Shown: positions 101 to 40,688, counted from the first letter of the stretch. The stretch: 64,000 nt of DNA from Methanococcoides sp. AM1 (GCF_900774055.1 NZ_CAAGSW010000002.1:1-64000); one strand, 5' to 3'. Notes: generated by a model not told the origin, from the letters alone. Translations and numbers: made by a program.

Positions 101-231
101 TAGAGTACGGCGGCCATAGCGGCAGGGCAACTCCTGTTCCCTTTCCGAACACAGAAGATAAGCCTGCCCACGTTGCTTACTGTACTGAGGTACGAGAGTC
201 CTCGGGAAATCTGCGTCGCTGCTGTGCTCAC
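101..231 (+). rRNA. 5S ribosomal RNA
   Basis: The sequence has the conserved archaeal 5S core around GTTCCCTTTCCGAACACAG (about 138-156), followed by GAAGATAAGCC. The ends form the expected terminal helix: GAGTACGGCGGC near 103-114 pairs with GCTGCTGTGCTC near 218-229. The length of about 130 nt fits archaeal 5S rRNA. The ends are estimated from the helix and may be off by a few bases. It is the last gene of an rRNA operon whose larger genes lie to the left of the window. Confidence 0.93.
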
Positions 232-35622: not shown

Positions 35623-36237
35623 ATGATAATTTCATCTTCCAAACCCTTTAGCGAGGTCCTTGACATGCTGATGGACAAAGAGTCCGTTTTTATTGTAGGT
35701 TGCAGTGTATGCGCTGCCAAGCAGCATGTGGGTGGGGAGCCGGAGGTAGAGGAGATGAAATCCAATCTTAAGGACGCCGGAGTGAACGTGATCGGTGGAA
35801 TCGTTGCAAAAGCAGCATGTAGTGTTCGCTCACTTGAATACCTTGAGGAACTTGCACCTAAAATAAAGGATGCTGATGCAGTGCTGGTCATGGCATGTGG
35901 AAGTGGTACTTCCAACATTGCACGCTTTGTTGATGTTGATGTCTATCCTGCCAACAACACCGAATCCCTGGGTGCTATGACAGGGGATAAGGTCATACAT
36001 CATTTATGTGCCATGTGCGGGCAATGCACGATCGCCGAGTTCGGCGGTGTCTGTCCCACAGCCCAGTGTCCCAAGGAATTGCTTAATGGTCCCTGTGGTG
36101 GTTCCATGGACGGCAAGTGCGAAGTTGATCCTGAGAAGGATTGTGCCTGGGAACTTATTTACGAGCGTCTTGAGAGGATCGGCCGGCTGGATCTGCTGGA
36201 TGAGGTCCGGGATGCGAAGGATCGTTTGGTGAAGTGA
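35623..36237 (+). CDS. metV: MetV-like methylene-THF reductase partner, copy 1
   Basis: The 204-residue Cys-rich protein matches the methylenetetrahydrofolate reductase C-terminal domain family (MetV), which binds zinc or Fe-S and pairs with MetF. Cysteines lie in GCSVCAAKQ (about 26-34), KAACSVRS, MACGSGT, HHLCAMCGQC (about 127-136) and CPTAQCPKELLNGPCGG (about 144-160). Its ribosome binding site GAGGT lies inside the end of the upstream DHPS-like gene, so translation is coupled. A second copy at 37614-38228 differs at only 12 of 204 residues. metF is 5.6 kb downstream. Confidence 0.88.
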   Translation: MIISSSKPFSEVLDMLMDKESVFIVGCSVCAAKQHVGGEPEVEEMKSNLKDAGVNVIGGIVAKAACSVRSLEYLEELAPKIKDADAVLVMACGSGTSNIARFVDVDVYPANNTESLGAMTGDKVIHHLCAMCGQCTIAEFGGVCPTAQCPKELLNGPCGGSMDGKCEVDPEKDCAWELIYERLERIGRLDLLDEVRDAKDRLVK

Positions 36238-36547
36238 GTTTTTTCCCGGTCTTTCTGTAATTGAAAATGCTTTTTTGTTGGTCGGCTTCAAAGCCGGATG
36301 TCGGGCAGGTCTGCTGATTTCTACCATGTTTTCCTGTAAGAAATAAAGTCTAATTTTTGTGACCATATCGTCGAACTCAAAGAAAACAGTTTGATGGAAT
36401 GGATAGAAAACATTTATACTGCTTCTCACCTAGGACATAATAAAACATCGTAAAGATGATTCAATAGTATCGCTAAATTATTTGGCGTATGCGATTCTAA
36501 ATTTGTCGAATAATTCCAATATATTACTGATTGCCGGAGACCATGAA
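36238..36547. other. 310-nt intergenic region after metV copy 1
   Basis: It contains a perfect small hairpin CGGCTT-CA-AAGCCG (36283-36296), T-rich stretches that could end the upstream operon, the 76-nt repeat described at 36383-36458, and the GGAGA ribosome binding site of the next gene. No coding region is convincing. The DNA is AT-rich. Confidence 0.6.
36383..36458 (+). repeat. 76-nt repeat, copy 1: promoter/leader-like
   Basis: This segment matches 39642-39717 at about 65 of 76 positions without gaps (shared cores include TTTGATGGAATGGATA, ATTTATACTGCTT and TAGGACATAAT). It contains a TATA-like TTTATACT near 36412-36419 and lies about 90 bases upstream of the ATG of an exported protein. 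The second copy is similarly placed before another exported protein. It is probably a duplicated promoter with conserved leader; a small RNA or mobile element remnant is an alternative. Confidence 0.8.
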
Positions 36548-37528
36548 ATGCTAAAGAGAAAAGAAATTGGTAAAATTTTGATACTTGTATTATTAGTTTC
36601 CATGTTATCAGTAGCTTTTGCAAGTGCTGCTGCTGACAAATTAAATGATTCTGAAAATACCGGTGAGATCGCCGATTCAAACATCTCTCATTCCTATTTT
36701 GAAGAATGTAAGATTCATCCACTGTTCATAGCCAGCAGGGGAAATTTTCCCGAAACAACTGATCTGGAATGGGAAAAGTCGGTTACCAGATGCTATGATT
36801 CCATAACTAAAATGGGTCCCTCATATACAATTGACAGTTCTATAAAAGGCATCTTTTGCGCCGATGAATTGCTGGAAGTGCATCTGGGTTCTGCTTATAA
36901 GGGAAAAATGAATGAGTCAAAAATTGATGAAATCTACAGGAAAATAAATAAACAATGTGAGCAGGAAGAGGGAATCAGCGACATACCCGTGGTCTTTATG
37001 TGGGCACAGGATGAGGAAGATATGCCCCTTCCAGATTATGGTCCGGAGATCTTTGAAGAAGCTAAAAGCGGTTCATCATTTATAGCTGCCTACGGGACAA
37101 TGCCCATAATTAAGGAGAAGAGTGAAAAATTAAGATGGACGGATCTGCTTGGTCATACCAAGGATAGGGAACTTGACCCATTTTTTGCTGAATTTGGTGG
37201 TCCCGTAGTAAGTTATGGAGTCAGTATTAATGGATATCTAAGTGTGGGCATGAATTCTGATACGCCTGAAAAAGTAAATGAGTCAGTAATTAATGAAATA
37301 TATCAGACAATCAATAAACATTTTGAACAGGAAGCGAGTATGGAAGAAGTTCCGGTACTATTTGAATGGGGGAGATCCACTATTCCGACAGATGCTGTTT
37401 GTCAGCCCCCCATTCAATTTGATGAAAACCAAACTTCAAAAGACGAAAAGTCAACTCCTGGATTTGGCCTAATTCTGATGATTGTTGGTATTATAGGCGC
37501 TGCTCTCTTTGCGAAAAGACATGAATAA
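36548..37528 (+). CDS. Exported protein with tandem repeated domain and PGF-CTERM tail
   Basis: The 326-residue protein has a signal peptide (about 1-29, ending ASAAA), two copies of one domain and a C-terminal STPGFGLILMIVG...KRHE sorting tail. Repeat 1 ends with KMNESKIDEIYRKINKQCEQE...PVVFMW (about 130-165), and repeat 2 with KVNESVINEIYQTINKHFEQE...PVLFEW. I do not recognise the domain. GGAGA lies 7 bases before the ATG at 36548. It sits between the two metV copies, so it is likely cargo of a duplication event. It is more AT-rich than the C1 genes. Confidence 0.8.
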   Translation: MLKRKEIGKILILVLLVSMLSVAFASAAADKLNDSENTGEIADSNISHSYFEECKIHPLFIASRGNFPETTDLEWEKSVTRCYDSITKMGPSYTIDSSIKGIFCADELLEVHLGSAYKGKMNESKIDEIYRKINKQCEQEEGISDIPVVFMWAQDEEDMPLPDYGPEIFEEAKSGSSFIAAYGTMPIIKEKSEKLRWTDLLGHTKDRELDPFFAEFGGPVVSYGVSINGYLSVGMNSDTPEKVNESVINEIYQTINKHFEQEASMEEVPVLFEWGRSTIPTDAVCQPPIQFDENQTSKDEKSTPGFGLILMIVGIIGAALFAKRHE

Positions 37529-37613
37529 AACCCGACATTCAGTCACATATACACAAGGCCACGATTTCATGAAAAGCTCTATGCACAAAAATTACCGTTA
37601 TCAGTGATACAAA

Positions 37614-38228
37614 ATGATAATCTCATCTTCCAAACCCTTTAGCGAGATCTTTGACATGCTTGCAGACAAGGAATCCGTCTTTATCGTAGGTTGCTGCGTA
37701 TGCGCCGCCAAGCAGCATGTGGGAGGGGAGCCTGAGGTCGTGGAGATGACATCCAATCTTAAGGACGCCGGAATAAACGTGATCGGTGGAATAGTTGCAA
37801 AGGCAGCATGCAGTGTTCGCTCATGTGAAGCCCTTGAGGAGCTTGCACCGAAAATAAAGGATGCCGACGCAGTGCTTGTCATGGCATGCGGAAGCGGTAC
37901 TTCCAACATCGCACGCTTTGTGGACGTTGATGTCTATCCTGCCAACAACACCGATTCCCTGGGCGCCATGGCAGGGGATAAGGTCATCCATCATCTCTGT
38001 GCCATGTGCGGCCAATGCACCATCGCCCAGTTCGGTGGCGTGTGTCCCACAGCCCAGTGTCCCAAGGAATTGCTTAACGGTCCCTGCGGTGGTTCCATGG
38101 ACGGCAAGTGTGAAGTTGATCCTGAGAAGGATTGTGCCTGGGAGCTGATCTACGAGCGCCTTGAGAGGATCGGCCGGCTGGATCTGCTGGATGAGGTTCG
38201 GGACGCGAAGGATAGGCTGGTGAAGTGA
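37614..38228 (+). CDS. metV: MetV-like methylene-THF reductase partner, copy 2
   Basis: This is a near duplicate of 35623-36237: 192 of 204 residues are identical, and the last 65 are unchanged. Differences include GCCVCAAKQ for GCSVCAAKQ, which adds one cysteine near the N-terminal cluster, and SCEAL for SLEYL. Nucleotide similarity starts at the ATG and ends just after the TGA, so the copied unit is essentially the CDS. Unlike copy 1 it has no coupled upstream gene; its leader is weak. Both copies appear intact. One could pair with MetF while the other is redundant or changing role. Confidence 0.88.
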   Translation: MIISSSKPFSEIFDMLADKESVFIVGCCVCAAKQHVGGEPEVVEMTSNLKDAGINVIGGIVAKAACSVRSCEALEELAPKIKDADAVLVMACGSGTSNIARFVDVDVYPANNTDSLGAMAGDKVIHHLCAMCGQCTIAQFGGVCPTAQCPKELLNGPCGGSMDGKCEVDPEKDCAWELIYERLERIGRLDLLDEVRDAKDRLVK

Positions 38229-38421
38229 GTTCTGTTTTTGGCATGGCTTGTAACCTACGATTTTGATGCAAGATTACTGCTTCTCCCACACATTTTAAAT
38301 ATTATTGATCACCTCTCTAATTTGTTTCAACCAGATTATGGAGGATTCTATATCGATTATATCCTGAAAGAAGAATTGTGGCGCACAATAGCAGTGCTCT
38401 CTCTCTTTTTTGGCATTGGTG

Positions 38422-38601
38422 GTGATAGATGAAGCCGGACTTATTTCAATAAGTGCTTTATCAATCTTCATTCTGGCTTTCTTTGTTACGTTTGTCCACG
38501 TTTCATTCATGGTCTGGTACAGGAGAAAAGAAGGGCTGGCATCATCTAATATTACGTTGATACTGGACTATATGTTAAGTTCAAGGTCAAATGATAAGTG
38601 A
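38422..38601 (+). CDS. Possible small membrane protein
   Basis: A 59-residue frame starting at GTG 38422 (also GTG 38419) encodes one hydrophobic helix (about 8-30, ISISALSIFILAFFVTF), then a basic turn WYRRKEG and a polar end. I do not recognise it. It lies in an AT-rich 447-nt stretch between metV copy 2 and the next exported protein, a region with other very small membrane proteins. No strong ribosome binding site is visible, so the call is tentative. The remaining gap holds no other clear gene. Confidence 0.4.
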   Translation: MIDEAGLISISALSIFILAFFVTFVHVSFMVWYRRKEGLASSNITLILDYMLSSRSNDK

Positions 38602-38675
38602 ATTAAAATTCGGTTTAAGGTCAATCTGATCTTGCTTTTGGGGAATTTTTTAGATAAACTGCAGGTTTTGGTAAA

Positions 38676-39515
38676 ATGTATGAGCTATCTTCTAAAAAAT
38701 TAATTGCCATAACAATAGGCCTGATCATTATCTTCAGTCTGATATCTTCTTTGGTTACTTTACCTGCGGAACCTTATCACTCAAGTAATGAGTTCAAGTT
38801 TTCAGAATTGTTTAACACTTCTTTTCATAAATATCCGGTTCCTTTGAGTAGCTACTCTGCTTCAAACGGCTATATCGATTCGGTCATTGATTCCACATCT
38901 CTTCGTATTGATCCTCAAAATGTAATTGGTTTAAGCGAGTTTGAAGAAGCAAATATTATACTTATTGGATCAGGGGGAAACATCACTGAAATAATAGCTG
39001 ATGACAGAGCCAATGTTCTGGAAATAAATACCCTTGAGATGAAACCACTTGGCTCAAGAGAATTTTCGGCTACCGGAAAGCTAATGGAGAGCACAGTAAT
39101 AGAATTATATGAACTTGAAATTCCCCTGCCCGATCCAAATAATTCCTCCTCTCTCACTGTAAGTGCCCTTGAGATATCCCATGAAAGCTGGGAAGACCAG
39201 ATTGGTTGCAAAGGTGGCAAGAATAAAGATGTTCACATTGAAGGACTGTTTTTCATTGATAGTTCCGACAATGTGCTTGTTGCGGGAAATTCAGAGGTGC
39301 TTACAAATTGCACTCTGTTGTCAGTTACTGAAACTAAAGAACAGTTACAAAGTGGCAAGATTTTTGGCGAATTTTATAATTCAGTTAAGTGGGAAAGTAA
39401 AGGTCTGTTCATAAGTTCTGAATCAAGAAGGGAACCACATATTGTAGTTGATAAATTTATCACCATTACAACCTGGGTTGCAGAAGATTCATGGCTCAGT
39501 CTGGGTATATTCTGA
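38676..39515 (+). CDS. Exported or membrane-anchored protein of unknown function
   Basis: The 279-residue protein has an N-terminal hydrophobic segment (about residues 8-27, LIAITIGLIIIFSLISSLV) that is either a signal or an anchor, and an otherwise soluble Ser/Glu-rich ectodomain. Cysteines occur as GCKGGK near 182 and NCTLL near 211. There is no PGF-CTERM tail. I do not recognise a family. It is AT-rich and lies inside the metV-metF interval, probably cargo of the island. Confidence 0.65.
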   Translation: MYELSSKKLIAITIGLIIIFSLISSLVTLPAEPYHSSNEFKFSELFNTSFHKYPVPLSSYSASNGYIDSVIDSTSLRIDPQNVIGLSEFEEANIILIGSGGNITEIIADDRANVLEINTLEMKPLGSREFSATGKLMESTVIELYELEIPLPDPNNSSSLTVSALEISHESWEDQIGCKGGKNKDVHIEGLFFIDSSDNVLVAGNSEVLTNCTLLSVTETKEQLQSGKIFGEFYNSVKWESKGLFISSESRREPHIVVDKFITITTWVAEDSWLSLGIF

Positions 39516-39842
39516 ATTGCACATCTTATGGACATGTTAATGCTGTTCTTAGGATACCCCTCTTGTTTGAGCATCTTTTTTGGCTAACTAATTAAAAAGA
39601 ATGTAAAAATTGTTGATCGTGAAGTACAAAGGCACCAATAAAAAACAATTTGATGGAATGGATATAAAATATTTATACTGCTTGTCACTTAGGACATAAT
39701 GCGACATTGCAAAGACGTTGTGATATTTGGAAAATCCTGATGGAACAACCAATTCAAATGCCAGGGTATAATCTCAGATTTTATTGTTTACTCCTATAGG
39801 TACGTCTTTGTTTCCGGATCAATGGGTTCAAGAGGTTATTGC
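39516..39842. other. 327-nt intergenic region with second 76-nt repeat
   Basis: It holds T-rich sequence (TTTTTT at about 39576) that may end the upstream gene, the repeat at 39642-39717, about 110 bases of further leader, and an AGAGGTT ribosome binding site before the ATG at 39843. No additional gene is convincing. Confidence 0.6.
39642..39717 (+). repeat. 76-nt repeat, copy 2: promoter/leader-like
   Basis: It matches 36383-36458 as described there. The TATA-like TTTATACT is intact, near 39671-39678, and the preceding bases AAAATA improve the match to an archaeal promoter. It lies about 125 bases before the ATG of the exported protein at 39843. Confidence 0.8.
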
Positions 39843-40688
39843 ATGAAAATAAAGCTATTTCTGGGATTGCTGTTTGTGATCGGCATGATCGGGTCCGGAT
39901 TGGCAATTGAAGAAAATGCAGAACAAAGTTGTGTGATTATTGAAGAACAGCCTCAGGAAGGAATAGTTAGAACACCGGATGAAGTAATGGCAATTTTTGG
40001 TAATATTACGTGGGATTATCAAATACCCGATGAAGTACCGGCTGATGGGATGGTGCGTTCACATGAAGGCACAAAATATGTGTATATGGTACGTAATTTT
40101 TCAGCTTCGATTTCGCTAACAGAACTAAATGAAGCAAGAAACGATGTGATCAATAGCTATTATGCGAATACGTCGGAGAATGGAGCTTCATATTGTTCTA
40201 TAATGTATTCAGTACCTCTGGTTCCGGAAGGAGGACGCATTGTAGCGTACTGTTTTAGAATTAATGATGACGGGATAACAAGTCACTATGTGGGAATTGC
40301 CGGTGACGAATGTTCGGTATCCAGAATTCATGATAAGGCAGAAATATGGTACAACAATGAAGTTCTGGAGCTGGAAAAAGCAGAAGCAAATGCAATTGTT
40401 GAAGATGAACCCATTTCCAATAGCTCAGCTCAGGTTTCATCTGAAAGCTACACAATGTCCGAGGATAAGCTCGAGATTGCAAATAAGTTGTATGGTACTG
40501 ACATTACCTATGGCGAATACATAAAACAGGTTTTCCCTGAAGCATACAAGGAATTTCCTTCACCTTCTGAAGAAAAACTCTATAATATGGATATGCTATG
40601 GCCGATATTTCCCAGGGGGATCATATTAGTTATCTGTGTTCTTGTTTTGGCGTTTTTCATGGTGAAAATAATGGAAAAACTGGATTAA
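39843..40688 (+). CDS. Exported protein with C-terminal membrane anchor, unknown function
   Basis: The 281-residue protein starts with a signal peptide (MKIKLFLGLLFVIGMIG..., about 1-22), has an ectodomain with three to four cysteines (SYCSIMYS, AYCFRIND, DECSVSR), and ends with one membrane helix (about 253-272) and a short charged tail. I do not recognise a family. The ATG at 39843 has AGAGGTT upstream and is preferred over 39822. Its leader carries the 76-nt repeat shared with the exported protein at 36548, so the two may be co-regulated though their sequences differ. Confidence 0.75.
   Translation: MKIKLFLGLLFVIGMIGSGLAIEENAEQSCVIIEEQPQEGIVRTPDEVMAIFGNITWDYQIPDEVPADGMVRSHEGTKYVYMVRNFSASISLTELNEARNDVINSYYANTSENGASYCSIMYSVPLVPEGGRIVAYCFRINDDGITSHYVGIAGDECSVSRIHDKAEIWYNNEVLELEKAEANAIVEDEPISNSSAQVSSESYTMSEDKLEIANKLYGTDITYGEYIKQVFPEAYKEFPSPSEEKLYNMDMLWPIFPRGIILVICVLVLAFFMVKIMEKLD

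Follow-up and report, generated by a model that had tools for sequence, protein, structure and literature searches.

Two genes for different exported proteins in a 64,000-nucleotide (nt) stretch of Methanococcoides sp. AM1 (GCF_900774055.1 NZ_CAAGSW010000002.1:1-64000, the whole of which is called the window here) are each preceded by a copy of the same 76-nt repeat. What does a repeat shared by two such genes do? An earlier note on this DNA had taken it for a promoter running into a shared leader, and perhaps the target of a small RNA (sRNA). The repeat combines an operator half-site and a transcription factor B recognition element (BRE) with a TATA box, and runs through a start-site region into hairpin 1 of a leader RNA. 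The explanation that we favor, and that taken as a whole we consider probable, makes this repeat the control region for a small regulon of exported proteins in this Methanosarcinaceae archaeon, in which these parts act together with a membrane-anchored regulator.

A promoter module shared by the two repeats

Direct alignment of 36383-36458 with 39642-39717 gave 65 identical positions out of 76, just as the earlier note had estimated, and a repeat finder reported 86% over 74 nt. The two copies are identical at 15/16 positions of the half-site, 6/6 of the TATA box and 20/22 between the TATA box and the predicted start. Outside the repeat identity drops abruptly to about 30% (25/83 upstream and 25/86 downstream). 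The 40-nt core of the repeat matched twice in the real window and never in any shuffled window. The promoter features are as follows, with scores from an operator position weight matrix (PWM).

36363-36377, no strand assigned: degenerate left arm of the operator palindrome, copy 1 (CCATATCGTCGAACT); 11/15 positions complementary to the right arm
36387-36402, + strand: operator half-site, copy 1 (CAGTTTGATGGAATGG); PWM score 42.4, exact match to the genome-wide pattern
36403-36412, + strand: BRE-like A-rich stretch, copy 1, directly 5' of the TATA box; conserved in 22 genus copies
36413-36418, + strand: TATA box TTTATA, copy 1; near-invariant among genus copies
36440-36444, + strand: predicted transcription start region, copy 1
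39646-39661, + strand: operator half-site, copy 2 (CAATTTGATGGAATGG); PWM score 40.9, one mismatch to the pattern
39662-39671, + strand: BRE-like A-rich stretch, copy 2, from the alignment
39672-39677, + strand: TATA box TTTATA, copy 2, from the alignment
39699-39703, + strand: predicted transcription start region, copy 2, on the same grounds as copy 1

The half-site, 16 nt long, is constant across the aligned copies (CAGTTNGATGNNNTGG) and lies directly 5' of the BRE, approximately 50 nt before the predicted start. After it the aligned copies have the A-rich BRE and TTTATA, and then the hairpin AACATC-GTAAA-GATGTT, located about 30 nt from the first T of TTTATA. The TATA-like box of the earlier note is TTTATA in both copies. 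TTTATA with an A-rich stretch, as in an archaeal BRE/TATA promoter, where these elements precede the start by about 20–30 nt, is found in both copies and nearly all relatives. Only the two half-sites of the repeats exceed 10 bits when the window is scanned with the operator PWM. Across the order, this archaeal operator-BRE-TATA module is found repeatedly before genes for exported proteins.

Divergent genes in several sister species are separated by a long palindrome, CCATATCATCCAACTG-N8-CAGTTGGATGATATGG, of which the half-site forms one arm; in sister species the 16-bp arm makes a perfect palindrome. Copy 2 in the window has no left arm (only 4/15 complementary positions).

The start was placed from two sources. 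In a related methanogen the distance from TATA to start is approximately 19–22 nt (PMC5378194), and in relatives the first T of TTTATA is followed 30 nt later by position 1 of the leader model described below. TATA boxes at 36413-36418 and 39672-39677 therefore put the starts near 36440-36444 and 39699-39703. With a start at the former position, TAGGACATAAT (36431-36441) falls mostly upstream of +1, and most likely this segment precedes the transcription start within the TATA-to-start interval. The recurrence of the module and the covarying leaders of relatives strongly support a shared promoter that runs on into a common 5' leader; the part of the earlier proposal that put TAGGACATAAT in the 5' untranslated region (UTR) is not supported.

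A 96-nt query matched 6/10 same-genus genomes, with one to six copies in each (E≤0.01). The majority of these copies occupy the same hot spot, from a methylene-tetrahydrofolate-reductase C-terminal (MTHFR-C) gene (window 35623) to a methylene-tetrahydrofolate-reductase-like gene (window 41880), and a minority lie on other contigs away from it. Orthologues of repeat 2 in three sister species are 91–93% identical.

A membrane-anchored regulator and its candidate operator

In sister species with the palindrome, an exported-protein gene lies on one side and an oppositely transcribed pair, encoding a small exported protein and a regulator, on the other. The regulator has an N-terminal export signal, a short outer segment, one transmembrane helix and two cytoplasmic winged helices, both above Pfam cut-offs (HTH_24 PF13412 / HTH_HVO_0163_N PF24266).

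The search for further copies that the earlier note had proposed was made in two ways. By blastn no third copy of the repeat was found in the 2.48-Mb genome. The operator-TATA pattern CAGTTNGATGNNNTGGNNANAAANNNTTTATA, with at most three mismatches allowed, matched four sites in the same genome compared with one for the reversed control pattern. These four are the two repeats and two sites flanking an exported lipoprotein-like gene, which adjoins the only close regulator homologue of this genome (G000:C4:201385-202038, outside the window). Each of the 21 regulator homologues with E≤4e-38, which represent six genera and two families, has in its locus an operator site scoring 23.7 bits or more, in many cases as a long palindrome. 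When GTDB genomes were scanned with the regulator alignment, in a set overlapping partly with this one, 14/16 loci had a site of at least 15 bits, including two Methanoperedens records. In 88 kb of control sequence no operator site was found other than the two repeats. The motif and the regulator gene co-occur across taxa, suggesting that the half-site is the operator that the double winged-helix regulator would bind.

Sister genomes possess two regulator paralogues, A in the hot spot and B elsewhere. A variable triplet at the center of the operator is ATA or ATG near A and AAA (one GAA) near B. Both window sites have GAA and the repeat 2 orthologues have AAA; this genome has lost A and kept B. 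Although the numbers are small, the triplets and the loss of A fit control of the window promoters by B, and these promoters are presumably still under the remaining paralogue.

A leader RNA family upstream of exported-protein genes

The leaders of sister species fold into three hairpins (H1–H3). RNAalifold found no structure in the first alignment of all leaders because sequence-only alignment had mis-registered H2. A covariance model (R1) built from six similar sister-species leaders resolved this and described an RNA of approximately 123 nt. R1 gave more than 100 full-length matches in 38/112 genomes of the family; a second model, R2, found the leader in 93/186 Methanosarcinales genomes and 18/27 genera. 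Statistics were computed on 107 distinct copies.

Covariation is strong, also in held-out copies. In the fitted alignment 88% of cells pair and two-sided changes occur at 35/36 pairs; covariation scores 0.441, against 0.05–0.08 for slid partners. For 39 matches held out of the building of R2 the score is 0.402 compared with 0.03–0.12. Alignment-free folding gave a mean z of -4.14 for leaders and of -0.22 and -0.31 for their flanks. The leader family is structured and order-wide. Only three genomes outside the order matched in a phylum-wide sample, and each of the six matches examined there (L218–L223) is closely followed by an open reading frame (ORF) whose N-terminal segment is hydrophobic, which suggests that the RNA is older or was transferred. 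Rfam 15 gave no match at the gathering threshold in 19 sources besides 5S ribosomal RNA and nothing convincing at E≤1, and identity with an Rfam family was rejected. The 5S ribosomal RNA gene itself lies at window 106-227 (Rfam RF00001). As far as the databases and literature were searched, most subscription papers lying outside that search, the family is undescribed.

An operator of at least 15 bits precedes 53 of the 107 copies, at an offset of -53 to -57 in 48 of the 53, and none was found in control stretches. Eight Methanosarcina leaders (loci L197, L199, L203, L206, L211 and L214) are preceded by another conserved box, GAATGTTAATCAGRCTGATGAA...GTATAGGAGAAG, with no evident TATA; these may be internal to longer transcripts.

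In the window the family is represented by the following.

36444-36460, + strand: 5'-terminal hairpin (H1) of the copy 1 leader (AACATC-GTAAA-GATGAT), from alignment and folding
39702-39820, + strand: leader RNA, copy 2; full-length R1 match, 21 bits, E=0.06 genome-wide

H2 and H3 could not be recognized in copy 1, where there was no covariance-model match. The copy 2 leader is the only R1 match at E≤10 in the genome, and R1 was not trained on the window; it scores higher with R2, but R2 was trained on it. Copy 2 appears homologous to the order-wide family but structurally eroded. The window operators appear intact while the leaders look poorly kept.

Nearly every leader lies 10–30 nt upstream of a signal-peptide gene, and the distance from leader end to gene start is mostly 20–27 nt. 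A hydrophobic export signal opens 99/104 downstream ORFs of the first set and 37/37 of the held-out set; by comparison, 20/60 window ORFs of at least 100 amino acids have one. The mature parts of 131 leader-downstream proteins fall into 38 families. In 95/107 leaders a Shine-Dalgarno-like motif, mostly 6–14 nt past the leader end, is followed by the start codon. The two genes served in the window are as follows.

36548-37528, + strand: gene A, exported protein with a PGF-CTERM anchor (Pfam PF18204, above cut-off)
39843-40688, + strand: gene B, exported protein with a C-terminal membrane anchor (ORF; start chosen because the leader ends 22 nt before it and because of the Shine-Dalgarno AGAGGT)

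Because of the shared 20–27-nt spacing rule and AGAGGT, gene B most likely starts at 39843 rather than at 39822. Both products open with a hydrophobic export signal. The earlier note called them unrelated; no homology between them is detectable, and common descent was rejected. Gene A matches the N-terminal pro-domain of alpha-lytic-protease-like enzymes (blastp, E 1e-14 to 1e-18), and its profile matches alpha-lytic protease (PDB 5mrr, E 7.5e-13). AlphaFold of gene A from a single sequence was uninformative (predicted local distance difference test score 42.6). The domains of gene A occur as the N-terminal pro-domain of neighboring secreted proteases (L036, L037, L041, L043 and L083), and are here joined to a surface anchor. 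Gene A may encode an anchored protease inhibitor or immunity-like protein, a remnant after loss of the protease.

Competing explanations, mechanism and known systems

Could the repeat pair be a leftover of recent local duplication, without regulatory meaning? The MTHFR-C gene (PF12225) is present twice, at 35623-36237 and 37614-38228, on either side of gene A. These copies are 88% identical over 300 nt, and two sister species contain tandem arrays of MTHFR-C, the element and exported genes. The arrays and the MTHFR-C pair therefore mark the locus as a duplication hot spot. Yet identity of the repeats ends sharply at functional boundaries, repeat 2 does not adjoin the second MTHFR-C copy, its orthologues are conserved in three sister species, and the same operator-TATA motif adjoins regulator genes in other genera and families. 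Duplication accounts for the origin of the copies but not for continued conservation of the segment, and as a full explanation it is improbable. Several copies within a variable gene hot spot might also recall a miniature mobile element or transposon remnant. That origin was rejected and is almost certainly wrong: the region has no inverted repeats, terminal or otherwise, scattered copies such as transposons or miniature inverted-repeat transposable elements leave are absent (the genome search found no third copy), and the copies keep a fixed orientation and spacing to the start codon and TATA box. Their neighbors are regulator and exported-protein genes, not the transposon remnants that the earlier note considered would speak against its proposal. 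A third alternative makes TAGGACATAAT an sRNA target in the 5' UTR or part of a ligand-binding regulatory leader. The segment is identical in both copies (11/11) and the region does continue into a leader. However, its place is between the TATA box and the predicted start, given the published TATA-to-start spacing (PMC5378194), it is only loosely conserved in other copies, and no evidence supporting an sRNA target was found. The Shine-Dalgarno lies outside the leader helices in 95/107 leaders rather than within a helix, which argues against a riboswitch or RNA thermometer that sequesters it. We regard this alternative as very unlikely.

Several observations weigh against the exported-protein regulon. 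Copy 1 retains hairpin 1 only, and the copy 2 leader folds no better than shuffles (z -0.46), so that folding of the 5' UTR, suggested by the earlier note, gave a stable three-hairpin fold for relatives' leaders, with the family mean given above, but for neither window leader. About half of the leader copies elsewhere are without this operator; operator and leader are therefore separable modules. The regulator gene lies outside the window cluster, at a distance of about one contig. The assignment of signal peptides used a crude hydropathy rule. Because the structure itself guides the fitting of covariance alignments, folding, held-out copies and a plain alignment were used as checks; when RNAalifold was applied to 24 diverse leaders aligned plainly with MAFFT, it recovered H2 and H3 but only three pairs with two-sided changes.

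In the regulon that we propose, the membrane-anchored one-component regulator would bind the half-site directly upstream of the BRE. Archaeal activators that recruit TATA-binding protein (TBP) or transcription factor B (TFB) typically bind just upstream of the BRE. The position of the half-site therefore favors activation, and a surface signal sensed by the regulator may activate transcription through recruitment of TBP/TFB. The transcript would begin at leader hairpin 1. In its full form the leader has three hairpins and ends 6–14 nt before a free Shine-Dalgarno, with the signal-peptide gene next. Such a leader would shield the 5' end of exported-protein mRNAs and expose an open ribosome-binding site, and its role is likely that of 5'-end stabilizer and ribosome-binding-site presenter.

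The leader might instead be a membrane-targeting or export-coupling signal for these mRNAs. Its strict association with signal-peptide genes over about 38 unrelated protein families points this way, as does its independence of one promoter type, about half of the copies having no operator. No receptor is known, however, and the association could equally stem from co-expression or from abundant surface proteins needing stable mRNAs. We consider a targeting role conceivable but rather unlikely. With similar reserve, we suggest that the leader could be an export RNA tag of Methanosarcinales and a few other methanogen lineages, coupling mRNAs to membrane-associated translation or to common post-transcriptional control, atop the membrane-anchored control of transcription.

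Where many unrelated genes have a structured leader in common, the leader is usually linked with a metabolite or with ribosomal proteins. An export-tied leader that occurs in half of the sampled Methanosarcinales genomes, with several copies in each, and that Rfam does not contain would represent a new class of archaeal cis-acting RNA. Combined with the regulator family and its now defined operator, it would allow control of the methanogen cell surface to be tested directly in genetically tractable laboratory strains of Methanosarcina.

Long structured 5' UTRs are not new in methanogens. A differential RNA sequencing study of Methanolobus psychrophilus proposes that long 5' UTRs control stability and translation; a keyword search of its main text found no description of a shared leader family (PMC5378194). 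The regulator resembles archaeal double winged-helix regulators (PF13412 / PF24266) in its two winged helices, but additionally carries an export signal at the N terminus, an outer segment and a transmembrane helix, and a candidate operator has been identified for it. No characterized member of this type was found in the searched literature. ToxR/ToxS and CadC are membrane-tethered one-component regulators, and ToxS is a small partner. The regulator described here is likewise a membrane-anchored DNA-binding protein and in several genomes is co-transcribed with a small exported partner (cl4), as with ToxS. Its topology is opposite to that of ToxR and CadC, with the outer part first and the DNA-binding part C-terminal, and its DNA-binding domains are ArsR/MarR-like and not OmpR-like.

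One further locus (L084, G020:C1:445000-463000) has two regulator copies with transposases between them. This layout resembles MM2441/MM2446 with sRNA162/sRNA171 in Methanosarcina mazei, where an ArsR-family regulator adjoins a conserved three-stem-loop RNA and the unit is duplicated with transposases (PMC3510493). sRNA162 is a 191-nt RNA antisense to the leader of the neighboring gene MM2442 (PMC3510493). Identity of our leader with sRNA162 was set aside on this ground, by comparison of descriptions and not of sequences: the RNA described here stands in sense orientation at the 5' end of exported-protein mRNAs, as their leader.

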